Part shown: in pieces, positions 1 to 35,751 of the stretch
How the letters are laid out: each line of letters begins with the position of its first letter
Numbering within the stretch: the first letter of the stretch is position 1
Origin: Bacillota bacterium
GTDB lineage: Bacteria > Bacillota > Sulfobacillia > Sulfobacillales > JAIMBI01
NCBI GenBank assembly: GCA_021846505.1
Contig: JAJZWV010000014.1
Location: forward strand, 1 to 58,343
DNA: 58,343 nt
Reading direction: 5' to 3'
The notes under the pieces: generated by a model
Database searches by the model: none
What the model was told of the DNA's origin: nothing
Seen by the model: the letters and a program-made list of their open reading frames with translations, nothing else
Position numbers and translations under genes: made by a program

Positions 1-159
1 CCCACCGGCGCCGAGGTGGCCGACGCCGTGAGCGCCACCGACCCCGGTGTCACCGTCGGCCCCCCGGCCGCCAGCACGGCTGCGGCTGGCACCACACTCA
101 TCCACACCAAACTGGACGCCAGGGTCAGAGGCTTCCACACACGGCTCATCTTCATGTGA
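1..159 (+). CDS. C-terminal end of an unidentified gene (partial)
   Basis: An open frame enters from the left edge in frame 1 and ends at TGA 157-159, giving 52 residues (starts PTGAEVADAV, ends RLIFM). I do not recognise the family. The first 30 residues use GC-rich third positions like the other genes here, which is the only support. It could be the tail of a real gene cut by the window edge or a chance open frame. Confidence 0.3.
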   Translation, partial: PTGAEVADAVSATDPGVTVGPPAASTAAAGTTLIHTKLDARVRGFHTRLIFM

Positions 160-444
160 CTGCAACGTCCTTTCCTTGATCCAAAGCAAGCGCCCCGACG
201 CGCCGCCGCCTCCTGCCTCGCGGCAAGCCCGGATCCGCTTTGCTCAGGCCACGCATAGGCGGGCACCAGGCGGTGCCGCTGACTTGGGCCAATTCGACGC
301 GGCCTGCCGAATTCCTTTGCCGACTGGACCCATGTGCAACAAAATGTTCCGCCACTTCCAGGGCAATTTGGGGTGATGTAGGCTGAGTGCCGCAGGCGTG
401 GCGCTGCTTTGGCGAAATGGTGGTGTGCCTGCCAGCACGCCCTC
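160..444. other. Intergenic region without a recognisable gene
   Basis: About 285 bases lie between the possible gene end at 159 and the stop of the leftward acyltransferase at 445. Open frames here on both strands are arginine/proline-rich and have no ribosome binding site. I see no clear terminator. Confidence 0.5.
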
Positions 445-1374: not shown

Positions 1375-2249
1375 GAGGCGGGCCCCTCCCCCTCACGCCG
1401 GTGGACCCAGCCCCACCACCGCGCAGGGTCACTGGCCACCTGCCGCTCCAAGTAGCGGTAAACTTGCTCGGTCAGGTCCCACACCGCGGGCGTGTCTCCT
1501 CCGGGCCAGTAGAGCGGCTCCGCCACGTCCCACGTGTACGCCAAAGGCCCCGTGCGCTGAAGCGTCATCCCAATGAGCGGCACCTGCCCCTCGAGGGCGA
1601 TGCGCGCGGGGCCGGTCGTGGCAGGCAACTGCCCTCCCACGAACGGCACCATGGGTGCTTCGGGAGCCGACTGCCCCAGGTTGTAGTCGGGCGTGATGTA
1701 AACAGTCCAGCCCGCGGCCACCGCAGCCGCCAGCCGGTCCACGACGCCGCCCTGCTGAGCCATGGGGACAAACTCCAGGTTCAGGTGGCGCGAAAGGTAC
1801 TGCCGCAGCAGATGTCCCCACCACTCCGCCACTTGCGGCTCCGTCTGGCAGTTGACCCGCCAGCCATCTTGCAGCAGGCAGCCAGGCAGTGCCAGATAGG
1901 CGTCCCAATGGGGAGAGACCGCCACCATGCGGCCGTACTCTCGCCGGACCCGGTCCAGCACCGCTTGGCCCGCCACCGTCACATGCTGCTCGAAAAACTG
2001 CCAGGGCTCCTGCCACAGCAAAAACATAATCGGGTCCAGCATGCGGGATTGCAGGTACTGCACCCACCGCGACCGCGCCGCGACATCGGCGGGGAAATGC
2101 TGCGCGGCCAGCGCCGCCAGCTGCTGCGCCTCCTCGGGGCTTTGCTGCCAGTCATAGCGGTTGGCGTCCATCAGCAAGGGCCACGCGAGCTCCGGGGGAT
2201 ACTGCCGAATCACCGCAAAGAAGTCGGGCTGAGATGCGAGCGTGCTCAA
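1371..2249 (-). CDS. LABLAT-family acyltransferase, first of a tandem pair
   Basis: A 292-residue paralogue of the gene downstream, aligning along most of its length (RQYPPELAWP versus RRYPPEVTVP near the start; VTPD/ITPDYNLG; VPFVGGQLPATTGPARIALE; WWGWVH at the end). It lacks an N-terminal signal. The catalytic-region motif is H-W-D-A-Y-L, again without the Asp/Glu expected four residues after the His. The start is TTG at 2249; no better ATG is in frame and the length matches the paralogue, but the ribosome binding site is weak, so the start is uncertain. Family membership is clear from the pattern; the reaction is inferred. A pair like this could add two acyl chains to one acceptor in sequence. 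Confidence 0.78.
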   Translation of the reverse strand: MSTLASQPDFFAVIRQYPPELAWPLLMDANRYDWQQSPEEAQQLAALAAQHFPADVAARSRWVQYLQSRMLDPIMFLLWQEPWQFFEQHVTVAGQAVLDRVRREYGRMVAVSPHWDAYLALPGCLLQDGWRVNCQTEPQVAEWWGHLLRQYLSRHLNLEFVPMAQQGGVVDRLAAAVAAGWTVYITPDYNLGQSAPEAPMVPFVGGQLPATTGPARIALEGQVPLIGMTLQRTGPLAYTWDVAEPLYWPGGDTPAVWDLTEQVYRYLERQVASDPARWWGWVHRREGEGPAS

Positions 2250-2703: not shown

Positions 2704-5700
2704 CTAACCGCCCACCGCAATGGTGACCGACGCGGTCTCGGTCCCACCGGTTGGGGCATCCTGGGCCGTCAGCCGCATCGTCTGGCCGTTGGATGCCGTA
2801 TTGGGTACTGTGACGTACGCGGTCAGCTCGCCCTCCACGCCTGCCTCCACCGCTGTGGGTGTGGAGCCCAGCGTCAGCTGGCCGGCCGTGGGCGCGCCGG
2901 ACGCGGTCGCGCCGCTGGTGGTGCCACTGGAAAACGACAGCCAGATGGGGTCCCCCGACGACACCAGCTGGCCATAGAGGGTGTAGCCGGTCACATATTC
3001 CGTGCCAGCCACCGTGCCCGCCGACACTTGAGGCGCGGTCGGAAAGAACTCGATGGTTTGGGCGGCGTCCATCGCCACCGACCGGTGCAGCCGGGCGGTG
3101 GTGGCGGGGCCGCCCGCGTCGTAGAACCACACTGGCGCGCTGGACTGGCCCGGCGGGATGTTCACCACCGCAACGCTGGACGTGGGGCCACCTGCCGCCG
3201 TGGCCCAGGCGCCATTGGCCACCGCCGGCAGCACCACCTGCAGCGGCGTCTGGCCCACAACCGGAATGGGATTGCCTCCACCGTCGACATTTTTCACCCA
3301 CAGCTCATCCACCTGTCCCGAGGTGACCGACACATAGTTGAAGCCCTCCCCTGAGAACGCTCCCACCACTTGCCCCTGGTAGTACAGCTGCGCGTTTGGC
3401 GCCGGCGAGCCGGGCACAACGGTGTACGTCGCGGTGGCCGTGGCACTGGGATTCGACAAGTCGGTGAACGTGAGCGTCGCGGTCCCGGTGGACTCGGCCG
3501 TGATGCTCACGCTCGCGGTGCCCGATGCATTCAGCCGGAAGGGATTCAAGGACAAGACGCCCGAGTTGGACGACGAAACCACAATGGAGTCGCCCGTGGG
3601 GGCCGCCACCGGCGATCCCAGTGCGTTGAGACCAATAACCTCGCCGGTAATTTGGCTGCCGCCGCCCACGCGGCCCCCCGTCAGGGTGGTGGTGAGCTGG
3701 GTCGCGTAGTTGGACGGCGCCACCGCGTAGTAATCCGGGCTCTCGATGCCCACGCTGCCCAAGCTGCCGGAGACCGACACCCCCGCCCCCACGCCGAAGG
3801 CGGCGGAGGGCGTGAGGGACGCCGTGATGGTGGCGACGCCGGACGCATTGGTCAGCGCCTCGTACGTGTCGCCTACGCCACTGGCCCCGTTGGGCAGCGC
3901 CAGCACGCCGCCGTGATCGGTCACCGTGAACCATATCGGCTGGCCAGCCTCAGCCACCGGGCTGCTGTTCACGTCGGTCAGCTGGGCTTGGATCACCTCG
4001 CGCTGGCCTGGGAGCCCGTTGATGGCCGGGAACTCGAATCCCATCAGCACGGGCTGCGCGTAGCCCGGCAGGCCCAGCGTGAACGTGTACGACAGCGTGG
4101 CGGGCGGCAGCCCCAAGGAGCTGGTGTCCGTGAGAGAAATCGTGGCGGGGGTGCTTTGGTAGTAGTCGCTTTCTACTGTGAACACGGCGGCTCCATTGGT
4201 GATGGGCACACTGGGCAGGGTTTGCTGCCCGAAGTAGGAGGGGGTGCCCGTTGGCGCCGCCCCCGCATAAACCACCAGGTTGTTCGAGTTGCTGTTGAGG
4301 GTGAGCGTCCCCCCGTTGATGCCGGATCCCGCCCCGGTGGTAATGACATGGCCCTGGGCGTCTTCCACCATCACCGTATAGGTGGTGTACGTGAGGCCGC
4401 CGGCCACCCCCATGCTGGAGGTGACGGCCAAGTGGGACGGCACGCCCACCTCATACAGGCTAATGGACACCGGCGCCGGCACGCTGAGGATGTCGCCCGA
4501 GACAGGCGTGGCCGACACGGTCACCGTCCCTGACGCACCGGTGGCTGTAAACACGGTGGCCGTCGCGGTGCTGTTGTCGGTTGGCAGGAGAGGCACCACC
4601 TCGGTCGTCTGGGCACTGCTGCTGCTGAAGGAGCCGGATCCGGCAAGCGTTAGCTCCGCGAAGTATTCGTGGGAGGAGGTATAGGGCTGCCCCGCCTGAT
4701 CTCCGATGCTCACGGTCACGGTGGCGGCGTCGGGCGCATTGTTGGCCAGGCCCGACACGTTGCTGCTGAGCATCAGGGCCGACGCGTAGGCGGTTTGGGC
4801 TGTCACCATGGCCGTCGCGCTGCTGTAGCTGACATTGGCCACCTGTGCCTGGCCGGCGACGCCGCCCGCCGCAGTGGCCGCGGTGGTCAACTGGTCGGCC
4901 ACGACCGACACCACGCGGCCGGCATCGTGGTGCGGCACCACAAAGGACACGCTGGCGATGCCGCTGGTGACGGCATACATGTCGCCGCTCACCCCGCCGG
5001 TGCTGATGCCCAAGCCGGCGCCATTATCCGTCAGGGTTAGCATCCCGCTGAAGTTGGCCACTCGGTCTCCATGGCGGTCTTCCACGGTGTAGGTGACCGT
5101 CCCGGTGGCCGCCTTGTCGGCCACCACCGTCTGGGTGGCCGGCGTCGCGACCACTTGGCTCGCGGTGCCGTAGGCCACTTGCTTGCCGACGTTGCTCTCC
5201 AGCGCTCCGTGCTGGTCGTTGGCGGCCTCGGGGCTCTTGGCGTACGCCACGAACTTGTAAGGGCCCGACATCCCGGCCGTAAACGTGAACGTCTTGCTGC
5301 TTTGGTAGGCCCCACTCTGGTGCCAGGCGCCGCTCGGGTCTTGGTACCAGAACTGATACAGGGGACTGAAGATGCCGCTCGACGTGGCTGTCAGCGTGAT
5401 GGACGTGCCCTTGGCCACGGAGCCGCTCGCGCTGGAGGTCACGGATACCGTGGATCCATTGAACACGCCATCGGGCATCGTGGTCTGGGCCATGCTCCAG
5501 TCACCCGCCGCCACCTGCGCCTGGTCCAGCACGTCGACCACGACCAAGTAGTCGCCCTGCGACGGCGTGGCCAGCGTGAACGTATTGCCAGTGGAGTAGT
5601 TTTGCATGTCCCTCCACTGGCCGGTGGGGCTTTCCACCCAAAACTGATACTCGGCCGTGCCATTCGGGTCACTGGCACTGGCCGTAAACGTAGCGGAGCC

Positions 5701-5859
5701 GTTGGTGGGCCGAATCGGCCCGCTCAAGTGGACGCTGCCGGGCGTCACGGTCGGCGCGCTGTGCGCGATGACCGCCACCGCCGGCACAATTGACATCCAC
5801 GCCAGCGAAGACGCCATGGTGAGGCCGGCCATCACTTGGCGCTTGGGCCTGCGAGTCAT
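2704..5859 (-). CDS. P1: secreted Ig-like mosaic surface protein (1051 aa)
   Basis: A large exported protein. Residues 1-35 form a signal peptide (basic start, hydrophobic core, predicted cleavage near HSA-PT). Residues 40-125 and 130-225 are two related Ig-like or Y_Y_Y-like modules (EYQFWVESPTGQW; LYQFWYQDPSGAW). From GTASQVV (231) to VVPG (about 815) there are further Ig-like, invasin-like repeats of the type I call alpha (SISLYEVGVPSHLAV, SSMGVAGGLTYTTYTVMVED). The last 235 residues are the alpha-type C-terminal block (WVKNVDGGGNPIP, PPGQSSAPVWF). No LPXTG, SLH or C-terminal membrane segment is seen. Charged residues are few, as in acid-stable exoproteins. The ATG at 5857-5859 follows GAGGAGGGG at 5865-5873. 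It shares its middle type with P4 and its end type with P3. The role is probably adhesive or a surface layer (inferred). Confidence 0.88.
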   Translation of the reverse strand: MTRRPKRQVMAGLTMASSLAWMSIVPAVAVIAHSAPTVTPGSVHLSGPIRPTNGSATFTASASDPNGTAEYQFWVESPTGQWRDMQNYSTGNTFTLATPSQGDYLVVVDVLDQAQVAAGDWSMAQTTMPDGVFNGSTVSVTSSASGSVAKGTSITLTATSSGIFSPLYQFWYQDPSGAWHQSGAYQSSKTFTFTAGMSGPYKFVAYAKSPEAANDQHGALESNVGKQVAYGTASQVVATPATQTVVADKAATGTVTYTVEDRHGDRVANFSGMLTLTDNGAGLGISTGGVSGDMYAVTSGIASVSFVVPHHDAGRVVSVVADQLTTAATAAGGVAGQAQVANVSYSSATAMVTAQTAYASALMLSSNVSGLANNAPDAATVTVSIGDQAGQPYTSSHEYFAELTLAGSGSFSSSSAQTTEVVPLLPTDNSTATATVFTATGASGTVTVSATPVSGDILSVPAPVSISLYEVGVPSHLAVTSSMGVAGGLTYTTYTVMVEDAQGHVITTGAGSGINGGTLTLNSNSNNLVVYAGAAPTGTPSYFGQQTLPSVPITNGAAVFTVESDYYQSTPATISLTDTSSLGLPPATLSYTFTLGLPGYAQPVLMGFEFPAINGLPGQREVIQAQLTDVNSSPVAEAGQPIWFTVTDHGGVLALPNGASGVGDTYEALTNASGVATITASLTPSAAFGVGAGVSVSGSLGSVGIESPDYYAVAPSNYATQLTTTLTGGRVGGGSQITGEVIGLNALGSPVAAPTGDSIVVSSSNSGVLSLNPFRLNASGTASVSITAESTGTATLTFTDLSNPSATATATYTVVPGSPAPNAQLYYQGQVVGAFSGEGFNYVSVTSGQVDELWVKNVDGGGNPIPVVGQTPLQVVLPAVANGAWATAAGGPTSSVAVVNIPPGQSSAPVWFYDAGGPATTARLHRSVAMDAAQTIEFFPTAPQVSAGTVAGTEYVTGYTLYGQLVSSGDPIWLSFSSGTTSGATASGAPTAGQLTLGSTPTAVEAGVEGELTAYVTVPNTASNGQTMRLTAQDAPTGGTETASVTIAVGG

Positions 5860-5878
5860 TGAAGCCCCTCCTCAAGTC

Positions 5879-6054
5879 TTAGGAAATAGCGCGCAGGAAT
5901 ATGGGGTTGTCTTCCATCTCAATCGACTCGTATTCATTCTCCAAGCCACACTCCACTTCCTGCAATCCCCGGATCCCCTTGCACTGGAAATTTCCTTCTT
6001 TGGCCCCCCACACAAGGGACAGAGCCCTACCGTCAGCGGCCGTGCCGGCCGCAC
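5879..6054 (-). pseudogene. Frameshifted small zinc-ribbon-like ORF upstream of P1
   Basis: Reading left, one frame encodes LCPLCGGPKK, a typical Cys-x2-Cys zinc knuckle, up to a run of six G. After the run a second frame encodes a natural-looking tail (GNFQCKGIRGLQEVECG, then ENEYESIEMEDNP) ending at TAA 5879-5881, six bases before the P1 ribosome binding site. One extra G in the tract would join them into a protein of about 60 residues. The tail region has clearly lower GC than its surroundings. It is either a recently broken gene or a slippage-controlled one; a sequencing error in the G run would look the same. Confidence 0.4.
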
Positions 6055-6485
6055 GGCCCGCTCGGCAGTCCCGCGCCCGCGCTCACCATTGGAATGGGCT
6101 TGCGATCCTCACCCCACGGGGCGCTGTCCCTCCCCGGCTCAAATCGAGCGCGAGCTCGCCACCAGCGCGCGGCATCGCCGGTGCGGCTTCCAAGCCGCGG
6201 CCCCCCTTTCACAGCCTGCCGCCCGCTGAAGTAGGTACTGGCTCTCACCATGTAAGTGCAGGGGGCTGCGCCCGGCACCGCGAGATGGCGCCGTCGGGCA
6301 CCGGGGGCCTGGCGGGATTGCTTGCGCACACTGCGTGGGGCGCATCGCGACAGGCCGTGAGGCGGCACCCTCGTGCTGCACCGGCCCCACCCAACCCTTG
6401 GCGGCCCGCTTAGCGTGGCCGAGTTTTATAAGACGACGATAGCCCGGATACACAGAACAGGGATAACAGACACCACAAAACCAGA
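6055..6485. other. Region without a gene between P1 and P2
   Basis: No convincing gene is seen here. The right part (about 6420-6485) is relatively AT-rich and holds TTTATA at 6425-6430, which read leftward is TATAAA and could be a -10 element for transcription toward P1; no clear -35 hexamer goes with it. Confidence 0.4.
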
Positions 6486-6521
6486 ACAGATAGCAGGGAT
6501 AGCAAGAGTAGCACAAGTAGC
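6486..6521. repeat. Four degenerate 9-bp tandem repeats
   Basis: On the plus strand the units are ACAGATAGC, AGGGATAGC, AAGAGTAGC and ACAAGTAGC. They sit immediately past the P2 terminator hairpin. The function is unknown; they may be simple-sequence noise or a protein-binding array. Confidence 0.5.
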
Positions 6522-6524
6522 AAT

Positions 6525-6555
6525 GGTGGGCGAGCGGCAATGCCGCTCACCCACC
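6525..6555 (-). terminator. Hairpin terminator after P2
   Basis: Arms GGTGGGCGAGCGGCA and TGCCGCTCACCCACC pair almost completely; read leftward the single mismatch becomes a G-U pair. It lies about 35 bases past the P2 stop and is followed by pyrimidine-rich sequence rather than a clean T run. Confidence 0.65.
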
Positions 6556-6588
6556 TGCAGAGTAAGGAAACGGTGCCCGGATCGAGTG

Positions 6589-9500
6589 CTACGGATGGAT
6601 GGCCGGCGACGAGGGGGTCCCCTTCACCACCGCCGAGGCATTGCTTCCAACCTGGGTCACAGCATCCACGTTGAACGCGTACTGCGTGGTCTCCGTGAGC
6701 CCCGTCACCGCAGCTGACGTGGCAGACCTGGACTCGTTCGGGATGGCGTCGTACGCTTGGGCAAAGTCCGGCGCCCCATTGGCGTACGGAATCACCCAGA
6801 TTTGGTAGGCCGACACGTCCGCCGCCCCAGCGGAGGGCCGACTCCACGAAACCACGGCACCCCTCGTTTCCGACCCAGTTCCCTCGCCGGACCCTGCTGC
6901 TGCCGTGATGCCCGTGGCCTGGTAGTACGCCGTGTCGTAGCCGAGCGAGTCAGTCGACACGCTGGCGGACGCGCTACTCACCATCCACACGTTGGCGGAC
7001 GACGCCGACGCGGGGATGGCCACGGTCGTGACCGCGGCACCCCCGCTTACGCTCGTCCACTGCTCCCCGGACGGCAGCGACGGCAGCGTGACCGAGAGCG
7101 ACCCTGTGCTGGGGACCGGAATCGGGTCGCCAGCTTGGTCAACGTTCACCACCTGCAGCTCGACCGGGCTGTTGGCCGTCAGGCTCACCGGGTTGCTGGC
7201 ACTCACCTGCTGGCCCTGGTACTCGATCCACGGCGTCTTGAGAGCCGGACCTGGCACCACCTTCACCGTGAAGGACGCTGACGGCATCGCCGCGTTGGAC
7301 ACGTCGGTCACCGTGATGGTGGCGGTGCCCGCCTTGCCGGCATAGAGGCCGTCGCGTAGGTGCTCACCCCGCCCAAACGTGTACGTTCCGCCGGGGGTAA
7401 ACGCTGACTCCTGATAAATGGAGCTCGGCTCCTCCAGCTGGCTCGCGCCCGCAGCGGTTCCGCGGCCCACGCTCACCACCCCCGAGTTGCTGGAATGGAA
7501 CAGCAGCTGATCGTAGTTGTTGCCCGCGGTGAGCCCGCCCAGCGCGTTGGCCAAAAGCCCCGTCACGGTGGCGAGCGGCATGCCGGCCGGCACCGTGAGG
7601 GTGGACCCCGTGATCACCGTCTCCACGGCCGTCCCCGAGGTGAGGGTGAGGCTCGTAGCGTAGTTGCTGGGCGACACCACCTCGTACGTCGGGCTGGTCG
7701 CGTAGGTGCTGTTGTTCCCGATCAGGGCCGAGGTCGTGACGTCGAAGGAGTCCCCTGCCGTCCCCGACAGCACGGTCAGCGGGATGGACGCGATGCCTTG
7801 GCTGTTCGTGAACGCCTCATAGGTGTCGCCAGACTGGCTGGCGCCGTTCGGCAGCGCGGCGATGCCACTTTGCTTCAGGGTGAACCAAATCGGCTGCCCG
7901 GCCTCCTGCATGGCATGGCCATACTGGTCCGCCAGCTGGGCGGAAACTGTGGCCGTACCCCCGGCCGTCACCGTGGCGCTGGCCAAGGGCTGGCCCGCGT
8001 AAACCGGCAGGGTCTCCGTCAAGACTGCCGCCGGCGCCGCAAAGTGCCACAGGGTGCTGCCCGACACGCCGGCCGTCAGGTCGGTCGCCGTGATCGTGAC
8101 CGGCTGGCCGTTGCCGCTGCTCACGGTCCGCACCCCGAAGTCCAGTGCGCCCTGGCTAAACGGCTGGCTCACTATCCCGCCCGAAAGGTAGCCAGAATGC
8201 CATCCCGCGCTGGTGGCCGACTCGGTGTAGTAGTCCAGGTGGCTAGACGAGTTCACCGTTGTGGAGTTGTCCAACACCGACATGCTGCCAGCCGCGGCGG
8301 GGCCCACGGAGATGGTGTGCCCGCTGGCGTCCACGACATCGGCCTGGTACACCGCAAGAGAGGTGCCATTCGACACGGTGGCCCCCACTTGACTCACGTC
8401 CACTGCCGCCGGGGTGCCCACTTCATACACCGGAATGCTGATCGACGCTGGCACCAGTGGAGTCTCTGCCTGGTCGCCGCTCTGCGCCTGCACCGTGATG
8501 GTCCCGTTGGCCGCCGAGCCTTTGGCGCTGTACACGGTCACGGGGAACTGGCTCGCGCCCGGCGGCACCTGGAGGGACGCCGAGGTTTGGCTGCTGGAGG
8601 CCGAGAAGCTGCTGCCGCGGGACGTGCCGCCCAGGGTCAGATGGACCAACTGGCCGTTGGTCGTGGTGTACGGCGCGCCGGTGCTGTCCTCCAGCTGCAC
8701 CCACACCGTCGCACTGCTGACCTGGTTGCTCTCCAGGTTCGGCAGGCTCGACTGCAGGTTCAGCCTGTTGTCACTGGGCGCGGTGGTCATCACCGTGGCC
8801 GACCCATAGGTCACGTTGGCCACTTGGCCCTGGCCCGCCGTGCCGCCTGCGCTGGTCGCCGCCGACATCAGGTTGTCCGACGTCAAGGTGTACGCCGCGT
8901 TGCCGTCAGAGGTGTCACCGGACGTGCCCAGCGGAATCAGGCCGGTGCCGTTCCTGATGGCAATGACGCCGCTGTTGGACGATCCCGGGAACAACTTGCC
9001 ATTGCCTTGGGCATTCACCGTCTCTGAGACATTGACCATGCCGTTAAAGTTGGCCACCACGTCGCCGTGGCTGTCTTCCACTTTGGCGGTCAGCATGTCC
9101 GTCGCGCTGCCGTTGGCCACCACCGAGCCGCTCGCGGGCGTCAGCACCACTTGGCTCGCCGTGCCGTAGGCCACCTGGGTGCCCACGCTGCTTTGCAAGG
9201 CTCCGTGCTGGTTGTTCGCCGCCTCCGGGCTCTTGGCAAACGCCACGAACTTGTAGGTGCCCGACATTCCGGCCGTGAACGTGAACGTCTTGCTGCTTTG
9301 ATACGCCCCACTCTGGTGCCAGGTGCCGCTCGGGTCTTGGTACCAGAACTGATACAGCGGGTCAAAGATGCCGCTCGACGTGGCCGTCAGCGTGACCGGG
9401 GTGCCCTTGGATACGGATCCGCTGGCATTGGACGCCACCGAGACGGTGGAGCCGTTGAACACGCCATCGGGCAGGGTAGTCTGCGCCTGGCTCCAGTCCC

Positions 9501-9855
9501 CCGCGGCCACCTGCGCCTGGTCCATCACGTCGACGACGACCAGGTAGTCGCCCTGCGACGGGGTGGCCAGCGTGAAGGTGTTGCTGGTGGAGTAGTTTTG
9601 CATGTCCCTCCACTGGCCGGTGGGGCTCTCGACCCAAAACTGATACTCGGCCGTGCCATTGGGGTCACTGGCACTGGCCGTAAACGTGGCAGAGCCATTG
9701 GTGGGCCGGATCGGCCCGGTCAGGTGGACGCTGCCGGGGGTCACGGTCGGCGCGCTGTGCGCGATGACCGCCGCCGCCGGCACAATCGACATCCACACCA
9801 GCGATGAGGCCATCGTCAGGCCAGTAACCATCTTGCGCTTTCTAGTAGTTTGCAC
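6589..9855 (-). CDS. P2: secreted Ig-like mosaic surface protein (1088 aa)
   Basis: A paralogue of P1, P3 and P4. The GTG at 9855 is chosen because GAGGAGG lies 11 bases upstream and the protein then begins VQTTRKRKMVTGL, like P4; an upstream ATG at 10041 would add a non-homologous leader. A signal peptide (about 1-35) and two Y_Y_Y-like modules (about 38-225) come first. The middle block from GTASQVV to VVPG (about 232-868) is the beta type (SISIPVYEVGTPAAVDV, QPIWFTLKQSG, TITVTDVSNAAMP), shared with P3. The C-terminal block is the beta type (ELQVVNVDQAGDPIP, SSANVWMVSS) and ends in a fibronectin-III-like domain (about 985-1080; AVVSWSRP to YAFNVDAV), shared with P4. No wall-sorting signal is seen. 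It is probably exported to the cell surface; the partner is unknown. Confidence 0.87.
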   Translation of the reverse strand: MQTTRKRKMVTGLTMASSLVWMSIVPAAAVIAHSAPTVTPGSVHLTGPIRPTNGSATFTASASDPNGTAEYQFWVESPTGQWRDMQNYSTSNTFTLATPSQGDYLVVVDVMDQAQVAAGDWSQAQTTLPDGVFNGSTVSVASNASGSVSKGTPVTLTATSSGIFDPLYQFWYQDPSGTWHQSGAYQSSKTFTFTAGMSGTYKFVAFAKSPEAANNQHGALQSSVGTQVAYGTASQVVLTPASGSVVANGSATDMLTAKVEDSHGDVVANFNGMVNVSETVNAQGNGKLFPGSSNSGVIAIRNGTGLIPLGTSGDTSDGNAAYTLTSDNLMSAATSAGGTAGQGQVANVTYGSATVMTTAPSDNRLNLQSSLPNLESNQVSSATVWVQLEDSTGAPYTTTNGQLVHLTLGGTSRGSSFSASSSQTSASLQVPPGASQFPVTVYSAKGSAANGTITVQAQSGDQAETPLVPASISIPVYEVGTPAAVDVSQVGATVSNGTSLAVYQADVVDASGHTISVGPAAAGSMSVLDNSTTVNSSSHLDYYTESATSAGWHSGYLSGGIVSQPFSQGALDFGVRTVSSGNGQPVTITATDLTAGVSGSTLWHFAAPAAVLTETLPVYAGQPLASATVTAGGTATVSAQLADQYGHAMQEAGQPIWFTLKQSGIAALPNGASQSGDTYEAFTNSQGIASIPLTVLSGTAGDSFDVTTSALIGNNSTYATSPTYEVVSPSNYATSLTLTSGTAVETVITGSTLTVPAGMPLATVTGLLANALGGLTAGNNYDQLLFHSSNSGVVSVGRGTAAGASQLEEPSSIYQESAFTPGGTYTFGRGEHLRDGLYAGKAGTATITVTDVSNAAMPSASFTVKVVPGPALKTPWIEYQGQQVSASNPVSLTANSPVELQVVNVDQAGDPIPVPSTGSLSVTLPSLPSGEQWTSVSGGAAVTTVAIPASASSANVWMVSSASASVSTDSLGYDTAYYQATGITAAAGSGEGTGSETRGAVVSWSRPSAGAADVSAYQIWVIPYANGAPDFAQAYDAIPNESRSATSAAVTGLTETTQYAFNVDAVTQVGSNASAVVKGTPSSPAIHP

Positions 9856-9866
9856 TCGAGAAACAT

Positions 9867-9873
9867 CCTCCTC
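9867..9873 (-). promoter_or_regulatory. Ribosome binding site fixing the P2 GTG start
   Basis: GAGGAGG (leftward) ends 11 bases before GTG 9855. The same site and spacing precede the starts of P3 (13524-13530) and P4 (17308-17315), supporting homologous starts for these three genes. Confidence 0.7.
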
Positions 9874-9999
9874 GTTCGGTTCTGTGTCCCTCTGCCCACG
9901 GCAGGAAGCCCAGCCGGGCTGGGTGCGCCGTGAATGCGCCCCGGCAGGAATGCAGGAAACACGGCCTTCGGGCCATTCCTTAAGCCCGATTCGCGCTCT

Positions 10000-10008
10000 A
10001 TCATGCCA
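10000..10008 (-). promoter_or_regulatory. Candidate extended -10 promoter of P2
   Basis: Read leftward the site is TGG-CATGAT (TGn plus a -10-like hexamer), about 140 bases before the GTG start. It lies in a segment that aligns without gaps with the region upstream of P4 (TTCGGC, AAAT, CAGGA and ATGG-AT-AT at equal spacing). No clear -35 hexamer is present. Confidence 0.4.
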
Positions 10009-10159
10009 TAGCCTGCGCCCATGTCCTGAGCGAGCAAACAATATTTGCGCCGAAATCCTCGCGAAGGAATGGTTTCCACAGACTCATCAAACCACCAGAG
10101 CCAATAGTGGCGGTATTTGGCCTGTCGTTCGCCCCTCTTGGCACCTACCATGAAAGCAC

Positions 10160-10191
10160 GGGCGAGAGATGCCGCGCGGCATCTCTCGCCC
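10160..10191 (-). terminator. 32-bp perfect palindrome after P3
   Basis: GGGCGAGAGATGCCGC is followed directly by its exact reverse complement, 36 bases past the P3 stop in the leftward direction. It is a strong hairpin with a short T-containing stretch after it (GTGCTTTC). It separates P3 from the P2 promoter region (9874-10159), in which I see no gene. Confidence 0.65.
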
Positions 10192-10227
10192 GCATCGATC
10201 GATCCCCCGCACCTTGGGGCGGTGGGG

Positions 10228-13200
10228 TTAGTTGGTGAACGTTGCCGTCTTTACCTGATCCGGGCTTGTCGGCAGGTCTTGCACCGTCACGGTGCCGGAT
10301 TGAGCACTGCTCGGAAGTGTGCCATCCACCACCGTGATGGTGAACTGTCCGCTGGTGGCTCCCACCGCTTCCTGCGTAGTGGCACTGGCAAGGGCACTCC
10401 CATTGGCACTGGCCGTCGCACTCGTGCTGGCCGCGTCCCAGCTGGCCCACACCAGGTTCCCCGCCGGCAGCGCTTCGCCAAACAGGTTGTCCGCAGTGAC
10501 CGTGTAGGTGGCACTTGAGGGACCGCTGCCGCCCGGCGCGTTCGCCGACGTCGGCGCGATCGCAAGCTGCTGCGCCGCATCCATGGCCATCGCATCGCCA
10601 ATGTTGCTGGACGTCACCGATCCGGTGCTTTCAAACCACACCGGCGCGCTGGACTGGCCCGGCAAGATGCTCACCACGGCCATGGGGCTCGCGAAGCCCC
10701 CCAAGGACGTCGCCCACTCGCCATTGGCCACCGTGGGCAAAATCACCTCCAGAGGTGTCGTCCCGCTCACCGCGATGGGGTCGCCGCCGGCGTCTACGTT
10801 CTTGACCCACATTTCCGTCACCGTGCCGGACGACAGATTGCCCGGATTGTTGCCGCCAGACAGCGGCGCGCCGCTGTAGTACAGCTGGGCGTTCGGCAGG
10901 GGAGCGCCGGGCACCACCCTGACGGTGAAGGAGGCGGAGGGCATGGCCGCATTAGACACGTCGGTTACCGTGATGGTGGCGGTGCCGGCGCTGCCGGCGT
11001 AAAGGCCGTCTGAGGAGAACTCCCCCGACCCAAACGCATAGACTCCACCCGAAGTTGCGTTGCCGTCATATACGGTGGAATACTCTAGCTGACTCGCCTG
11101 CCGGTCGTCGCCGCGGCCCACACTCACCATACCGGAGTTGCTGGACTGGAACAGCAGCTCGTCATAGTAGTTGCCCGACGTCAGCCCGCCCAGCGCATTT
11201 TGGAGGGTGGCCGTAATCGTGCTCAGCGGCATGCCGGCGGGCACCGTGAGGGTGGCGCCGTTCAGCATCGCCGACCCGGCAGAGAGCGTGACACCGGTCG
11301 CATAGTCGGACGGGGCCACCACATTGAACCTTTGGCTGTACTCGGGGTAGGAGTGGCCCGGCTCCCCCCCGACACTCCCGGAGGCCGATACTTGAAAGAA
11401 GGTGTCGGCTGTGGCATTGCTCAGCACCCTCAAGGGGATAGACGCAATGCCCTGCGCGTTGGTGAACGCCTCATACACGTCGCCCGCTTGGCTGGCCCCG
11501 TTGGGCAGGGCCGCCATCCCGCTGTTCTGCAGGGTAAACCACACGGGCTGCCCCGCTTCCTGCACGGCATTGCGATACTGGTCCTTCAGCTGGAAGGATG
11601 AAGTAGTGATGGCGCCGGCCGTCACGGTGGTGTGGCTCAGCTCTTTCCCGGCATACCGCGGCAGCTGCCCCACGTATCCTGCCGTCGGCGCCGCGAAGTG
11701 CCACGTGAAGCTGCCAGACACATTGGGCGCCGCCGACAGATCCGTGGCCGTGATGGTGAGCGGCTTTCCGCTGCCACCCTCTTCGGTAGCCACCGAAAAG
11801 TCCGCCATGCCGGTGCTGAATGACAGGCTCATCAGCCCCGGGCTGTCCGTCGCCGACGACGCGAGGTGGAATCCGGTGCCGTCGACGGAGGTGGTGAAGT
11901 AGTCCAGGCCCGCGGACGGGTTGGCGGTGGCAGAGTTGTCCAGCACCGACATGGTCCCCGACGAGGCCGGGCCCAGTGAGATCGTGTGCCCGCTGGCATC
12001 CACCACGTCGGCTTGGTACACCGGGTACCCGCCCCGCGTCATGCCCACTTGGCTCACATCCACCGCCGCCGGGGTGCCGACTTCGTACACGGGAATGCTG
12101 ATCGACCCTGGCACCAGCGGCGCCTGCGACGGGTCGCCGCTCTGCGCCTGCACCGTGAGGGTGCCGTTGCTGCCTTTTTCGCTGTACACGGTCACCGGAA
12201 ACTGGCTCGCACCCGCCGGCACCTGGATGGACGCGGTGGTTTGGCTGCTGGCGGCCGAGAAGCTGCCGCTGGCCGTGCCCCCCAGGGTTAGATTCACGTA
12301 CTGGCCGTTGGCGGTCGAGTACGGCGCGCCGGTGCTGTCCTCCAACTGCACCCACACGGTCGCACTGCTGACGTGGTTGCTCTCCAGGTTGGGCAGGTTC
12401 GACTGCAGCATCAGCATGTTGTCAGTGGGCGCGGTGGTCATGACGGTGGCGGACCCGTAGGTCACGTTGGCCACCTGGCTCTGAGTCGCGACGCCCCCCT
12501 GGCCGGAGTTGGTAGACATCAGGTTGTCCGACCGCAGGATGTAGGTGTAGTTGCCGTCAATCGGCAAGGCACTCGTGAGCACCGTGCCCTGCCCATTGGC
12601 TACCGCCACTTGGGTACCATCCGCCGTCTTGCCCGAGCTGTCCAGGAAGGTAAACGCTCCGTGCCCCTGCGGGTTGGCCACTTGCACGACCACCGTGCCG
12701 GTAAAGTTCGCCACCACGTCGCCGTGGCTATCTTCCACTGTGGCCGTCAGCATGTCCGTCGCGCTGCCGTTGGCCACCACCGTCGGACTGGCCATCGTCA
12801 GCACCACCTGGCTCGCCGTGCCGTAGGCCACCTGCGTGCCGACGTTGCTCTGCAAGGCGCCGTGCTGGTTGTTCGCCGCCTCGGGGCTCTTGGCAAACGC
12901 CACGAACTTGTAGGTGCCCGACATCCCGGCCGTGAACGTGAATTGATTGCTGCTTTGGTAGGGCCCACTCTGGTGCCAGGTGCCATTGGGCTCCTGGTAC
13001 CAGAACTGATACAGCGGGTCAAAGATGCCGCTCGACGTGGCCGTCAGCGTGACCAAGGTGCCCTTGGACACGGATCCGCTGGCGTTGGACGCTACTGACA
13101 CGGTGGAGCCGTTGAACACCCCATCGGGCAGGGTAGTCTGCGCCTGGCTCCAGTCCCCCGCGGCCACCTGCGCCTGGTCCAGCACGTCGACCACGACCAA

Positions 13201-13512
13201 GTAGTCCCCTTGGGACGGCGTGGCCAGCGCAAACGTGTTGTTGGTGGAGTAGTTTTGCATGTCCGTCCACTGGCCGTTCGGGCTCTCGACCCAAAACTGA
13301 TACTCGGCGGTGCCATTGGGGTCACTGGCACTGGCCGTAAACGTGACGGAGCCATTGGTGGGCCGAATCGGCCCGCTCAAGTGGACGCTGCCGGGCGTCA
13401 CGGTCGGCGTGGTCATCGCCATGACCGCTGTCGCCGGCAAAATCGACATCCACGCCAGCGAAGAGGCCATCGTCAGGCTTGACCACATGCGCCGCTTGCG
13501 ATCCCGCTGCAT
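10228..13512 (-). CDS. P3: secreted Ig-like mosaic surface protein (1094 aa)
   Basis: A paralogue of P1, P2 and P4. The ATG at 13512 (MQRDRKRRM) is chosen over the ATG at 13560 because GAGGAGG lies 11 bases upstream and the signal peptide then aligns with the others. Two Y_Y_Y-like modules (about 36-225) precede a beta-type middle block (GTASQVVLTMASPTV to VVPG, about 230-867; SISIPVYEVGTPAAVDV, AGQPVWFTLQNSG) like P2. The C-terminal block is the alpha type (PNAQLYYSG, WVKNVDAGGDPI, LPGQSSAPVWF, AMDAAQQLAI) like P1. P3 is therefore P2-like up to VVPG and P1-like after it. No anchor motif is seen. It is probably surface-located. Confidence 0.87.
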   Translation of the reverse strand: MQRDRKRRMWSSLTMASSLAWMSILPATAVMAMTTPTVTPGSVHLSGPIRPTNGSVTFTASASDPNGTAEYQFWVESPNGQWTDMQNYSTNNTFALATPSQGDYLVVVDVLDQAQVAAGDWSQAQTTLPDGVFNGSTVSVASNASGSVSKGTLVTLTATSSGIFDPLYQFWYQEPNGTWHQSGPYQSSNQFTFTAGMSGTYKFVAFAKSPEAANNQHGALQSNVGTQVAYGTASQVVLTMASPTVVANGSATDMLTATVEDSHGDVVANFTGTVVVQVANPQGHGAFTFLDSSGKTADGTQVAVANGQGTVLTSALPIDGNYTYILRSDNLMSTNSGQGGVATQSQVANVTYGSATVMTTAPTDNMLMLQSNLPNLESNHVSSATVWVQLEDSTGAPYSTANGQYVNLTLGGTASGSFSAASSQTTASIQVPAGASQFPVTVYSEKGSNGTLTVQAQSGDPSQAPLVPGSISIPVYEVGTPAAVDVSQVGMTRGGYPVYQADVVDASGHTISLGPASSGTMSVLDNSATANPSAGLDYFTTSVDGTGFHLASSATDSPGLMSLSFSTGMADFSVATEEGGSGKPLTITATDLSAAPNVSGSFTWHFAAPTAGYVGQLPRYAGKELSHTTVTAGAITTSSFQLKDQYRNAVQEAGQPVWFTLQNSGMAALPNGASQAGDVYEAFTNAQGIASIPLRVLSNATADTFFQVSASGSVGGEPGHSYPEYSQRFNVVAPSDYATGVTLSAGSAMLNGATLTVPAGMPLSTITATLQNALGGLTSGNYYDELLFQSSNSGMVSVGRGDDRQASQLEYSTVYDGNATSGGVYAFGSGEFSSDGLYAGSAGTATITVTDVSNAAMPSASFTVRVVPGAPLPNAQLYYSGAPLSGGNNPGNLSSGTVTEMWVKNVDAGGDPIAVSGTTPLEVILPTVANGEWATSLGGFASPMAVVSILPGQSSAPVWFESTGSVTSSNIGDAMAMDAAQQLAIAPTSANAPGGSGPSSATYTVTADNLFGEALPAGNLVWASWDAASTSATASANGSALASATTQEAVGATSGQFTITVVDGTLPSSAQSGTVTVQDLPTSPDQVKTATFTN

Positions 13513-13667
13513 TGTCTCTCGTACCTCCTCATCTGTTGGGTGCCTGGGAGTGGCAATCAATCATTTCGAAGGGCCACGATTCGCCAGGCTCCAACGTTTT
13601 TCCTGCCGTGGCGCAACCTTATTTCACAGGAACATCGGGCCACGCGCGCCAACGGGCCCAAGCCCAC

Positions 13668-13842
13668 TGCATGCTGCCGGAGGCAGCCGCGTCCACGGAG
13701 AGGGTGTGCCCGCTGGCGTCGACGACGTCCGTCCGGCGCACCCCGACGCCGCTGCCGGTCATGCCCACCTGTGTCGCCGCCACTGCGGCGGGCGTGCCCA
13801 CTTCGTAGACCGGAATGCTGATCGGCGCCGGCACCAGGGGCC
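13668..13842 (-). pseudogene. Relic of a fifth P-type gene (beta middle block)
   Basis: Between P3 and P4 the leftward strand encodes APISIPVYEVGTPAAVA, then TQVGMTGSG, then DVVDASGHTLSVDAA and SGSM. This matches one stretch of the beta middle block of P2 and P3 (VPxSISIPVYEVGTPAAVDV to SGTMSV). The similarity stops on both sides: upstream is unrelated sequence, and downstream it runs into WAWARWRAW and a stop. There is no signal peptide or N-terminal module. It is a gene fragment left by deletion or recombination. The surrounding 13531-13667 and 13843-14032 hold no other gene that I can see. Confidence 0.75.
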
Positions 13843-14032
13843 TTACCGACTTTGACCTCGCTTGGTTTGGGGTAACTGCCTGGTGCACCAGCAGGATTCG
13901 CCGCGATACCACATCGTTCCTTTACGAGGGACAACCTTAAGCGGCCTCCAGCGATGGGGTTCGCCAATTTAGCCAGCGTCCGCGCCCATTCACGCGGGTT
14001 CGACTGGACGCGAAGCGGGCCTGTGCGCACAG

Positions 14033-14066
14033 AGCGGGAGCGCAGATCGCCGTCTGCGCTCCCGCT
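14033..14066 (-). terminator. Hairpin terminator after P4
   Basis: Arms AGCGGGAGCGCAGA and TCTGCGCTCCCGCT are perfectly complementary with a six-base loop, about 22 bases past the P4 stop in the leftward direction. Confidence 0.7.
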
Positions 14067-14087
14067 GCTCTCTTTATTGGGTCAGCG

Positions 14088-17000
14088 CTAGGGTGTCATA
14101 GGAGTCGTTGGGGTCCCCTTGACCACCGCACTCGGGCTAGAGTACACCGCATCCACGTTGAACGAATACGTATCGTGCTCCGTCAGGCCCCCCGTGACGG
14201 TCACCGCCGAGATGCTCGATGGCAGGAAGCCACTGGCATTCGCCGACACGCTGAGATCACCTGTGGGCACCGCGAAGGGCGTACCGGAGGGACTCACCGG
14301 AATCGCCCACACCTGATAGCCCACCAGATTCGCGGTGTAGCTGGAGGACGGGTCCGTCCAGGTGAGGTTCACCGCATCCGTGGGATCGGTCCCGGATTGG
14401 GCGGCCGACAGGTTCGCCACGGCGTAGCCGGACGTCGCCGATGGACCCGTGGTGTACGTGGTGGCCGAACTACTCACCAGCCACACGTTGGCGGAGGAGG
14501 ACCCCGCCGGGATGTTCACGACGAGCCCGGTGGACGTTGCCCCGCCAGATGTCGTCGCCCAGCCTTCGCCGGCTGGCACGAGGGGCAATCCAACTGCCAG
14601 CGGGGCCGTCCCGCTGACATCAATGGGGTTGCCTCCCGCGTCGACATTGACAACCTGCAACTCTATGGGCGCGTTCGCCGACAGATTCACCACGTTCGCG
14701 GGGGAGCTCACCTCCGTGCCGTTGTACTCCAGAATTTGACCCGTGGCAGATCCAGGCACCACCGTGTAGGTGTACTTCTGCTTGGGCCCATTCACACCAT
14801 CGGACACGTCCTGCACGGTGATAGTTGCCGTCCCGGTCAACCCGGCAACCAAGCCGGTTCCGTTGGGGCCCGGGCCGCCAAGGTTTGCGACCCCGTTGGG
14901 CCCCAGCTCCAGCTGCGCGCTTGTTTGGCCCGCGCCACCAACACCCACCACATTGGGGTTGTTGGACGTCACCTCAATGTAGTCGCCCTGGTTGGGCCCA
15001 GCAGGGGGAGGGGGAGTCGGCGGCGAGGTTGGCCCGTAAACCGCCTCGTCCGCCACGTTCATTCCGGTGATGGTGGCGGTCAGCCCAGACCCAGCCGCAA
15101 GGGTGCCACCGGACAAGGTCGTCTGGAGGCTCGTCACGTAGTTGCCGATAGACCGCACCATGATCTCCGGCGACATTGACAAATCCGGGTTGTAGTTGCC
15201 TGAACCCAGCATCCCAGCTGCGGTAATGTCCGCGTTGTTGCCGTTAACATCACTGGACAGCACGGTCACATTGATGGTCGCCACGCCTGAGCTATTGGTG
15301 AACGCCCGGTAGGTGTCACCAGAGGCACTGGCGTTGTTCGGCAGGGCCAACACGCCGCCCGTGCTGAGGGTGAAGTAGATCGGCTGGTTCGCCATCGCGA
15401 CCGGGTTGCCGTTGATGTCCGTCAGCTGAGCCGACTCGCTGATGGTCTCACCCGCCGTAACGCTGGACAGCGGCAGCGTGCTGTCGTTGATCGTGAACTC
15501 CGCATAGCCAGGCGCCCCGACCTTGTAGGTGTAGGTGGCGGCAGCGGACGCGATGCTGCTGTTGGTGTCCGTCACCGTGAGCGTAGCCGGGCTGCTCTGA
15601 TACGCGGTATTCTCCACGGTGAACGTCCCCACACCGTTGTTGATCGGGATGTCCACCAAGTGGCTGTGCGTGGTCTGGGCCGTAGGAACCGCACCCATCG
15701 ACAGCTCGAGGTTGCCCGAGTTGGCGGCCACACTGAGCTTGCTGTTGATGCCCGAGCCGCTGCCCGTGGAAATCAGGTTGCCGTTGGCGTCTTCCACCAT
15801 CACGGTATACGTCGTATACGTGAGTCCGCCCGCCACCCCCATGCTCGATGTGATGGCCAGGTGGGTCGGCACTCCTGCCTCATACAGGCTGATGGACACC
15901 GGCGCCGCTGCCGTGAGCGGGTCACCCGAAACGGGCGTGGCCGATACCGTCACGGTGCCCGACGCATTTTGCGGTGTGTACACGTACACGCTGGCCGAAC
16001 CGTTGCTCGCGTTGTCCAGCGGGACCACTTCCGACGTCTGGGTGCTACTGGCACTGAACGAGCCCGAGCCAGCGATCGTCAGGTCAGCATAGTACGTGTT
16101 GCTCACAGGCGTGTATGGGTTCCCCGCCTGGTCCGCCACGCTCACCGTCACCATGGCGGTGTCCTTGGCATTGTTGGACATTCCGGACACGTTGCTGCTG
16201 AGCATCAAGCTAGCCGCGACCGCCGTCTGGGCCGTCACCATCGCCGTGGCGTTGCTGTAGTTGATGTTGGCCACTTGGCCCTGACCCGAGACACCGCCGG
16301 CGCCGCTGACCGCGCTGGTCAGGTTGTCAGCGACGATGGACACTACACTGCCCGCATCCGCAGTCGGCACCGCGAACGACGTGGTGGCCACGCCGCTGGT
16401 AACGGCATACGTGTCACCGCTGTTGATGCCACCGGTGCTGATGCGCATGTTCGCGTTGTTGTCGTTCAGCGTCAGGGTCCCGCTGAAGTTGGCCACGCGG
16501 TCCCCGTGGCTATCTTCCACCGTGTAGGTCACCAGGCCGGTGGCCGACGTGTCCGCCACCACCGTCTGGCTGGCCGGGCTCACCACCACTTGGCTCGCCG
16601 TGCCGTAGGCCACCTGCGTGCCCACATTGCTCTGCAAGGCCCCGTGCTGGTTGTTCGCCGCCTCCGGGCTCTTGGCAAACGCCACGAACTTGTACGTGCC
16701 CGACATCCCGGCCGTGAACGTGAACGTCTTGCTGCTTTGGTAGGCCCCACTCTGGTGCCAGGTGCCGCTCGGGTCTTGGTACCAGAACTGATACAGCGGG
16801 CTGAAAATGCCGCTCGACGTGGCCGTCAGCGTGACCGAGGCCCCTTTCGCGACTTCGTTGCCGTTGGCGTTGGACGCCACCGAGACGGTGGAGCCGTTAA
16901 ACACGCCATCGGGCAGCGTGGTCTGGGCCATGTTCCAATCGCCCGCGGCCACCTGCGCCTGGTCCATCACGTCGACGACGACCAGGTAGTCGCCCTGCGA

Positions 17001-17297
17001 CGGGGTGGCCAGCGTGAAGGTGTTGCTCGTGGAGTAGTTTTGCATGTCACTCCACTGGCCGTTCGGGCTCTGCACCCAAAACTGATACTCGGCCGTGCCA
17101 TTGGGGTCACTGGCACTGGCCGTAAACGTGGCGGAGCCATTGGTGGGCCGAATCGGCCCGGTCAGGTGGACGCTGCCGGGGGTCACGGTCGGCGCGCTGT
17201 GCGCCAAGACCGCCGTCGCCGGCAAAATCGACATCCACGCCAAGGATGAGGCCATCGTCAGGCCGGTAATCACCTTGCTCCGTTTCGCGGTTTGCAC
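14088..17297 (-). CDS. P4: secreted Ig-like mosaic surface protein (1069 aa)
   Basis: A paralogue of P1-P3. The GTG at 17297 (VQTAKRSKVITGL) follows GAGGAGG at 17308-17315, matching P2; an ATG at 17390 has no such support. After the signal peptide and two Y_Y_Y-like modules (about 38-228), the middle block up to VVPG (about 847) is the alpha type (SISLYEAGVPTHLAI, SSMGVAGGLTYTTYTVMVED) like P1, with a proline-rich linker (PTSPPTPPPPAGP). The C-terminal block is the beta type (IELQVVNVDAGGNPID, SSSANVWLVSS) and ends in an FN3-like domain (YSFNVDAVYSSPSAVVKGTP) like P2. P4 is therefore P1-like before VVPG and P2-like after it. No anchor motif is seen. It is probably exported and surface-located. 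Confidence 0.87.
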   Translation of the reverse strand: MQTAKRSKVITGLTMASSLAWMSILPATAVLAHSAPTVTPGSVHLTGPIRPTNGSATFTASASDPNGTAEYQFWVQSPNGQWSDMQNYSTSNTFTLATPSQGDYLVVVDVMDQAQVAAGDWNMAQTTLPDGVFNGSTVSVASNANGNEVAKGASVTLTATSSGIFSPLYQFWYQDPSGTWHQSGAYQSSKTFTFTAGMSGTYKFVAFAKSPEAANNQHGALQSNVGTQVAYGTASQVVVSPASQTVVADTSATGLVTYTVEDSHGDRVANFSGTLTLNDNNANMRISTGGINSGDTYAVTSGVATTSFAVPTADAGSVVSIVADNLTSAVSGAGGVSGQGQVANINYSNATAMVTAQTAVAASLMLSSNVSGMSNNAKDTAMVTVSVADQAGNPYTPVSNTYYADLTIAGSGSFSASSTQTSEVVPLDNASNGSASVYVYTPQNASGTVTVSATPVSGDPLTAAAPVSISLYEAGVPTHLAITSSMGVAGGLTYTTYTVMVEDANGNLISTGSGSGINSKLSVAANSGNLELSMGAVPTAQTTHSHLVDIPINNGVGTFTVENTAYQSSPATLTVTDTNSSIASAAATYTYKVGAPGYAEFTINDSTLPLSSVTAGETISESAQLTDINGNPVAMANQPIYFTLSTGGVLALPNNASASGDTYRAFTNSSGVATINVTVLSSDVNGNNADITAAGMLGSGNYNPDLSMSPEIMVRSIGNYVTSLQTTLSGGTLAAGSGLTATITGMNVADEAVYGPTSPPTPPPPAGPNQGDYIEVTSNNPNVVGVGGAGQTSAQLELGPNGVANLGGPGPNGTGLVAGLTGTATITVQDVSDGVNGPKQKYTYTVVPGSATGQILEYNGTEVSSPANVVNLSANAPIELQVVNVDAGGNPIDVSGTAPLAVGLPLVPAGEGWATTSGGATSTGLVVNIPAGSSSANVWLVSSSATTYTTGPSATSGYAVANLSAAQSGTDPTDAVNLTWTDPSSSYTANLVGYQVWAIPVSPSGTPFAVPTGDLSVSANASGFLPSSISAVTVTGGLTEHDTYSFNVDAVYSSPSAVVKGTPTTPMTP

Positions 17298-35464: not shown

Positions 35465-35635
35465 ACGGTCCACCCCGCCGCCCGATTTGGCGCCGGCACC
35501 AATCCCCATTATCTGCCTCGCTGGGACATTCGCAGCGCGCTCCCGCAAAAAGAGGATTTTGGCGCCGGAGCCCGTATTGCCCCAGCTGAACAAGTCGCTG
35601 GCCGCGGCCCCACTCGGTGGCGCGGCGGCCGGCCC

Positions 35636-35666
35636 TTGGCACAGCTGCCACGTCAACCCATACAAC
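35636..35666 (+). promoter_or_regulatory. Possible promoter of the GH18 gene
   Basis: TTGGCA (35636-35641) and TACAAC (35661-35666) with a 19-base spacer, longer than usual. The leader would be about 80 bases. No gene is seen in the 322-base divergent gap 35430-35751. Confidence 0.35.
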
Positions 35667-35751
35667 TCTGTGTCTCCGCCGCGGGCGCGGCTGGACGCAA
35701 TTCGCCGATAAGGCCGCGCCTCACCCAAGTTTGAACGGAGGATCTCAATCT

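Follow-up and report, generated by a model that had tools for sequence, protein, structure and literature searches.

Four consecutive genes for giant proteins, here named P1 to P4, lie at positions 2704-17297 of the window, which is the whole 58,343-nucleotide contig C67 (JAJZWV010000014.1) of a Bacillota genome (G000; 3.58 Mb in 119 contigs). All four are intact open frames on the minus strand with the same order of parts, namely a signal peptide, an N-terminal (N) module of about 196 aa whose second half gives a Y_Y_Y match, domains D1 to D5 ending in the motif VVPG, a domain D6, and a tail; signal peptides were called by eye and block limits were set by us on the four-way alignment. P1 (2704-5859, 1051 aa) joins a D1-D5 of the version termed alpha to an alpha D6 and tail a, and P2 (6589-9855, 1088 aa) joins a beta D1-D5 to a beta D6 and an FN3-like tail b. 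The other two genes cross these parts, with a beta D1-D5, alpha D6 and tail a in P3 (10228-13512, 1094 aa) and an alpha D1-D5, strongly diverged in D4-D5, a beta D6 and an FN3-like tail b in P4 (14088-17297, 1069 aa). A Pfam scan of P1-P4 gave matches to Y_Y_Y, fn3, Glyco_hydro2_C5, Big_1 and Pur_ac_phosph_N, several of them below the cut-off; the FN3-like tail of P2 scored above the cut-off and that of P4 below it. Each gene has a GAGGAG ribosome-binding-site-like stretch before its start and, in the folded 3′ flank, a hairpin about 22-69 nt past its stop. Consensus scans of the window were uninformative, with 0 promoters and 10 terminator-like sites against 10.2 expected.

A breakpoint at the VVPG motif

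A preliminary description of this stretch held that P1-P4 share one N-terminal module and carry two middle versions (from GTASQVV to VVPG) and two C-terminal versions in all four combinations, as recombination between tandem copies near VVPG would make. The shared module is indeed 88-94% identical among the four proteins, and the two-by-two arrangement was recovered, with P1 pairing with P4 and P2 with P3 from GTASQVV to VVPG, and P1 with P3 and P2 with P4 after it. The VVPG codons at the D5/D6 boundary occupy 3409-3420 in P1, 7249-7260 in P2, 10906-10917 in P3 and 14751-14762 in P4 (all minus strand), within 5 bases of the breakpoints first proposed. Of seven marker motifs, each placed in two genes, 13 of the 14 placements were exact; SISLYEVGVP is exact in P1 and reads SISLYEAGVP in P4.

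Pairwise identity in 40-column windows was 77-100% for all pairs in windows starting at columns 20-200, from about column 240 the pairs P1-P4 and P2-P3 stood out, and past column 900 P1-P3 led, with P2-P4 less clear. This change was abrupt, not gradual. In the amino-acid alignment the best break lay between columns 902 and 909 (VVPG occupies 905-908), and none of 5000 permutations gave one as good; the nucleotide break fell between codon columns 902 and 908 (0/5000 permutations). At amino-acid sites dividing the four proteins two against two, 96 of 104 to the left of the best break (from column 232) favoured P1P4|P2P3, and 12 of 19 to its right favoured P1P3|P2P4, with five for P1P4|P2P3 and two for the third pairing. 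Near VVPG, no two of the genes share an identical stretch as long as 24 nt. P4 fell in the alpha clade of a D3-D5 tree (100/100), but the alpha middle is not uniform along D1-D5: identity between P1 and P4 is 72% in D1, 68% in D2, 59% in D3, 44% in D4 and 41% in D5.

A second pairing switch lies inside the N-terminal region, at codon columns 110-122 (0/5000 permutations), with P1P3|P2P4 before it and P1P4|P2P3 after it, at about 5494-5532, 9490-9528, 13147-13185 and 16932-16970 in the four genes. Exact matches of up to 86 nt occur between copies near these columns, and an assembly artefact is a possible source of this switch.

Separate histories of the middle and C-terminal blocks

Four genomes of the genus, one per species, were compared, these being the window genome and three metagenome-assembled genomes (MAGs), G001 to G003. 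Domain copies were collected with hidden Markov models (HMMs) built from P1-P4 alone, which favours copies resembling them, and were dropped if they covered less than 75% of the model or scored less than 25 bits. In the tree of the middle (D3-D5, 16 rows), alpha was split from beta at 100/100, and forcing the families of P1 and P3 together cost 323.5 log units (approximately unbiased [AU] test, p_AU 9.5e-48). The D6 tree (18 rows, mixture model) placed P1 with locus L053 of G002 (99/97) and P3 with loci L100 and L091 (92/86), all five grouping together at 100/99; forcing the alpha-middle set into one clade on D6 gave p_AU 1.9e-4, and forcing the beta-middle set 3.7e-4. As the AU tests reject each block's grouping on the other, middle and C block do not share one history, and the two trees give different pairings. 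This result supports the earlier proposal that the copies have recombined.

The D6 closest to that of P1 was L053 (84% identity, in G002), and those closest to P3 were L100 (81%) and L091 (77%), in G002 and G003, compared to 61% between P1 and P3. In the tails, those of 48 residues or fewer after D6 being left out, it was 71% for P1-L053, 61% for P3-L100, 58% for P3-L091 and 71% for P2-L093, compared to 32% for P1-P3 and 37% for P2-P4. As tails of the window genes are thus 58-71% identical to their counterparts in other MAGs and far less to each other, the C-terminal lineages seem to predate the species, and the C-block reassortment at VVPG looks old and now inherited. Among the family's 21 tails, an HMM made from P1 and its counterpart matched P3, L091 and L100 with E values from 5e-12 to 1e-10, one made from P2 and its counterpart without P4 matched P4 at E 5e-15, and one made from the alpha-middle kin did not detect the P4 tail. 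Whole tails were either shared or not detectably related, not gradually different.

The two C-terminal versions described at first suffice for P1-P4, but the genus has four tails among the 14 members with both blocks scored. Alpha middles are joined to tail a in two of these members, tail b in one and tail e in two, and beta middles to tail a in three, tail b in two and tail c in four. Explaining the tails on the middle tree takes at least 6 changes, compared to 3 if the blocks had one history, some nodes of the tree being weak. The comparison with related genomes recovered three of the four pairings elsewhere in the genus: beta with tail a in two further MAGs (L091, L100), and one case each of alpha with tail a (L053) and of beta with tail b (L093), and found differing array content, but the C-block reassortment appears old. 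Together, the trees and tails show two middle and at least four C-terminal (D6 plus tail) lineages that have been combined in varying pairs where D5 meets D6.

Younger exchange in the N module, D1 and D2

The N modules (5167-5754 in P1, 9163-9750 in P2, 12820-13407 in P3 and 16602-17192 in P4, all minus strand) are homogenised. Among P1-P4, synonymous divergence (dS) in the module was 0.22-0.47 over the six pairs, with nonsynonymous divergence (dN) of 0.03-0.07; in D1-D6 it was 0.71-1.33, high and rough values for such diverged blocks, except in D2 of P2 and P3. For this last pair (P2, 8461-8823; P3, 12121-12474; both minus strand) dS was 0.24, compared to 0.74-1.05 in their D1 and D3-D6, which shows that at least one internal block was exchanged more recently than its neighbours.

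A DNA tree of the N module (27 rows, with 12 of 39 copies, from distant groups, dropped) placed P1-P4 and L023, a copy that lies on contig C41 of the window genome, in one clade (100/99) apart from other paralogs and from all other genomes, and forcing P1 together with its G002 counterpart in the N half gave p_AU 1.1e-11. The P4 module differs from the C41 copy by a dS of only 0.07, though the middle of the C41 gene is beta. The near-identical tract runs from a few bases off the start codon to early D1, and no similarity was found between the upstream stretches of these two genes. In addition, an island in D1 is common to P3, the C41 copy and a G001 copy, and P2 is without it. Given the low dS in N and D2, the C41 tract and the D1 island, N, D1 and D2 have been passed between copies and across loci. 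The array thus combines conflicting segment trees with sharp breaks and, in the N module, partial concerted evolution, as own-genome copies are closer to each other than to counterparts elsewhere.

Strong as it is in the array and in C41, this homogenisation does not extend to every N module. The mean proportion of silent-site differences (pS) in the module within genomes was 0.385 for G000 (21 pairs), 0.380 for G001 (6), 0.470 for G002 (3) and 0.351 for G003 (3), with between-genome means of 0.383-0.498. Outside the genus, where 14 loci of 13 genomes were compared, G012 and G024 (same order, another family) served as a control, and their clustered N modules were 71-98% identical between positional counterparts and at most 44% within a genome.

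Copy turnover, neighbouring genes and distribution of the family

The spacer between P4 and P3 holds an orphan fragment (13670-13841, minus strand), 172 bp of the beta D2/D3 stretch with 73% nucleotide identity to P2 and P3, which is a probable remnant of a lost copy. At the contig end, a signal peptide and the first N residues (3-182, minus strand) probably mark the start of a fifth copy, cut there as are several family members across the four genomes. Fragment and cut copy suggest copy turnover in the array.

Downstream of the array lies a pair of acyltransferase genes, the first (445-1374, minus strand) with a Lip_A_acyltrans match and the second at 1371-2249 (minus strand); the pair (445-2249) is lipid A acyltransferase-like, and a query with the first gene found none in G001. 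Upstream lies a GT_A glycosyltransferase (17742-20765, minus strand), and this glycosyltransferase is followed by the start of a family member in G001 and G002 too. Where the window has P1 ahead of the acyltransferases, G002 and contig C15 of G000 have a beta gene with tail c. Over 3713 bp, positions 2773-6485 of C15 (L029) are 98.9% identical to a G003 contig; the window's own best DNA matches to the compared stretches of G001-G003 are 74-78%. Contig C15 may be bin contamination or a recent transfer, judging from this likeness, and was therefore counted as evidence for the G003 species and not for the window species.

Profile matches to P1-P4 occurred in 35 of 41 genomes searched (same order, own genome included), among them all four of the genus, and P4 as query gave matches at 30 places in its own genome. 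The N module also stands on a GH18 protein in the window (35617-38169) and on a pro-kumamolisin-domain protein on contig C91 of G000, and may have a general function at the surface or wall. In three genomes, shorter proteins (L030, L108, L111) pass directly from the N module to D6, so that D6 is a unit outside the array too. Other copies differ in their state of preservation. An alpha-type copy on contig C98 of G000 (L025, 3206-6522, minus strand) is broken across two frames, and a relic gene on contig C75 (L033, 3206-3823, minus strand), in which 214 bp are 91.6% like P1, runs from a gene start with signal peptide and first N part into a D5/D6-like end. Upstream of an alpha copy at L090 (2460-3109, minus strand), the two halves of the P1/P3 tail are matched weakly, at 22 and 17 bits and in two frames, which may reflect a decayed gene end or chance. 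The copies L083 in G002 and L095 in G001 have nearly identical N modules and translated upstream stretches about 95% similar; transfer, cross-binning or close kinship are perhaps the candidate readings of this likeness.

Predicted structure and surface role

A structure model of D5-D6 had a mean predicted local distance difference test (pLDDT) score of 48, with a block at residues 151-240 reaching 64-84 and strands beginning after VVPG at 147-150. Its best PDB matches were the surface-layer (S-layer) proteins SbsC and SbsB, at a weak E of 1e-3. For full-length P3, modelled at a mean pLDDT of 52, the matches were generic, among them complement C5 and alpha-2-macroglobulin. A sequence search of the PDB with the family profile gave 0 matches, and no SLH or other known wall-binding domain was among the Pfam hits of P1-P4; some S-layer proteins are without SLH. 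P1-P4 are secreted multi-domain immunoglobulin (Ig)-like proteins, probably S-layer-like or adhesin-like, a role suggested by their secretion, size and Ig-like make-up.

Interpretation and alternative explanations

We consider it probable that ordinary homologous recombination made the tandem genes P1-P4, and the wider family, into a mosaic that now forms a standing set of surface proteins with no switch. Copies would exchange segments by gene conversion or unequal crossing-over, the near-identical N module being the main shared stretch that aids exchange, and breaks at domain junctions would survive because each Ig-like domain would fold alone. The N module may serve as the cell-attachment part, kept uniform, with outer domains that differ in their contacts. 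The array would then hold two time scales, an old and inherited C-block reassortment and a younger homogenisation of N. A bolder extension, which we regard as unlikely, is that this environmental bacterium keeps a standing combinatorial surface-layer set, with N held uniform by gene conversion across loci and Ig-like blocks reassorted at a fixed junction. If this were true, and if there were no animal host, the bacterium would be building a repertoire with no immune system to evade, and defence against phages or the binding of surfaces might be the reason.

Several observations weigh against the standing mosaic, or limit it. Mean pLDDT values of 48 and 52 make the domain limits and the S-layer likeness weak, dS in the diverged blocks is rough, and we infer the cell-surface location and the attachment by the N module. 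The other three genomes of the genus are fragmented MAGs in which many copies are cut at contig ends, so that counterparts can be positioned only in part, and both blocks could be scored in only 14 members. Homogenisation of N has exceptions, as the modules of L024 and L025 in G000 fall outside the clade of P1-P4 and L023, pS within G000 reaches 0.54, and the three G002 copies (mean pS 0.47) are no closer mutually than copies of different genomes; outside the genus, two modules within G022 that are 86% identical are matched as closely in other genomes (83-100%). The placement of P4 by D6 gave p_AU 0.16 with P2, 0.16 with the alpha-middle kin and 0.32 for P2+L093+P4, so that its affinity is decided only by the tail. 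The middle of P3 groups with P2 and not with its C-block counterparts L091 and L100 (p_AU 0.015), and the label of inherited combination is accordingly not clean for P3; because of this grouping, either the middles of P2 and P3 were exchanged later, as in D2, or tail a was joined to a beta middle repeatedly.

The alternative that survives best is a dedicated, still active variant generator with frequent C-block exchange at VVPG and strains or cells that differ, in line with the first proposal of a modular system for generating surface variants. All four pairings side by side, a break at one domain junction, long shared homology in the N module (the exact matches of up to 86 nt) and the confinement of the P4 pairing, alpha middle with tail b, to the window (one of the 14 scored members) would all suit such a generator. 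Against it, the tails of P1 and P3 and of P2 and P4 are so diverged, relative to their counterparts in other MAGs, that the switches look older than the species, and near VVPG the copies have no identical stretch of 24 nt or longer that could drive exchange at present. A set of silent donor cassettes with one expression site was not found, the array consisting of four full open frames and one short fragment (13670-13841). Between 2200 and 18000, inverted repeats amounted to five pairs of 20-24 nt at 79-95% and none longer than 24 nt. None of the genome's five resolvase-family matches lies on this contig (tyrosine recombinases were not searched), and neither do its three reverse transcriptase (RVT_1) matches (template repeats were not searched). 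An active switch by inversion or by a retroelement is thus unsupported by these searches. With three of the four VVPG combinations common to other MAGs, tails deeply diverged, all four genes intact, and the youngest exchange seen making N modules and D2 more alike, the variant-generator claim was not supported, and we judge an active generator improbable, though exchange at a low rate may go on today.

Two further alternatives concern single features of the array. The likeness of the N modules could come from strong purifying selection alone, without gene conversion, as dN is low (0.03-0.07), the module recurs in other proteins and the three G002 modules are no closer mutually than to those of other genomes. 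This is very unlikely given that silent sites are alike too (pS 0.19-0.35 among P1-P4, compared to means of 0.49-0.50 between G000 and the other three genomes), that the N clade is genome-specific and that the N module of P1 is not sister to that of its counterpart. The mosaic could also consist of assembly chimeras, with short reads of similar copies misjoined, a suspicion raised by the 119 contigs, the many copies ending at contig edges and the exact N stretches of up to 86 nt. The genes share no 24-mer near VVPG, and beta-alpha recurs in L091 and L100, alpha-alpha in L053 and beta with tail b in L093; on both grounds an assembly chimera was rejected at VVPG, and we give this explanation very little credence overall. 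That there was no recombination, and that unequal rates or convergence acted on one tree, is hardly credible, for while the D4/D5 divergence between P1 and P4 does show block-dependent rates, imposing the grouping of either block (middle or D6) on the other fails the AU tests, the pattern changes abruptly and tails are all-or-none.

We therefore return to ordinary recombination and a standing mosaic as the better account of P1-P4. A four-way block table in one genome need not imply an active variant generator, and the array provides a worked case for a Bacillota genus of which literature searches yielded no description, in contrast to G012 and G024, where clustered N-module genes do not homogenise.

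Comparison with known systems

Literature searches found no published description of the P1-P4 family, and a search for Sulfobacillus plus surface proteins listed no paper that names Sulfobacillus. The S-layer genes of Campylobacter fetus, the sapA homologs, are likewise tandem, with a conserved 5′ block and different downstream parts. There, one promoter serves silent homologs by inversion, whereas each of P1-P4 has its own ribosome-binding-site-like stretch and hairpin. The S-layer proteins SbsB and SbsC of Geobacillus and EA1 of Bacillus are chains of Ig-like domains and were among the best PDB matches of the D5-D6 model (E 1e-3 to 1e-2, at its mean pLDDT of 48); P1-P4 differ from them in that no SLH or known wall-binding domain is among their Pfam hits.

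Mycobacterial PE/PPE proteins have a conserved N-terminal domain and a varied remainder, and a paper title names recombination for them (PMC4770551). The domains and the organism of P1-P4 are unrelated to theirs. The secretion of PE/PPE proteins also differs from that of P1-P4.

In Helicobacter pylori, the outer-membrane protein genes of the bab group (babA/babB/babC) are paralogs with chimeras that reportedly arise when gene conversion acts close to the 5′ end, at about 60-240 bp, and perhaps also in the 3′ region; the chimeras vary from isolate to isolate, and phase variation comes from CT repeats (PMC4552749). P1-P4 resemble them as chimeric paralogs but differ in that their pairings appear old, nothing comparable to the CT-repeat switch was observed, and they encode secreted Ig-like proteins of a Bacillota genome. 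Giant1-5 of Apilactobacillus kunkeei are neighbouring genes that encode large extracellular proteins and contain recombination tracts; the giants are reported to be less than 20% identical within a strain, with no sign of recent gene conversion among them (PMC12863079). The likeness lies in tandem large surface-protein genes with recombination, and the difference in that among P1-P4 the younger event that stands out most clearly is conversion in the N module and D2. Mosaic surface-protein paralogs are thus well known, and P1-P4 add another partly concerted family of this kind.

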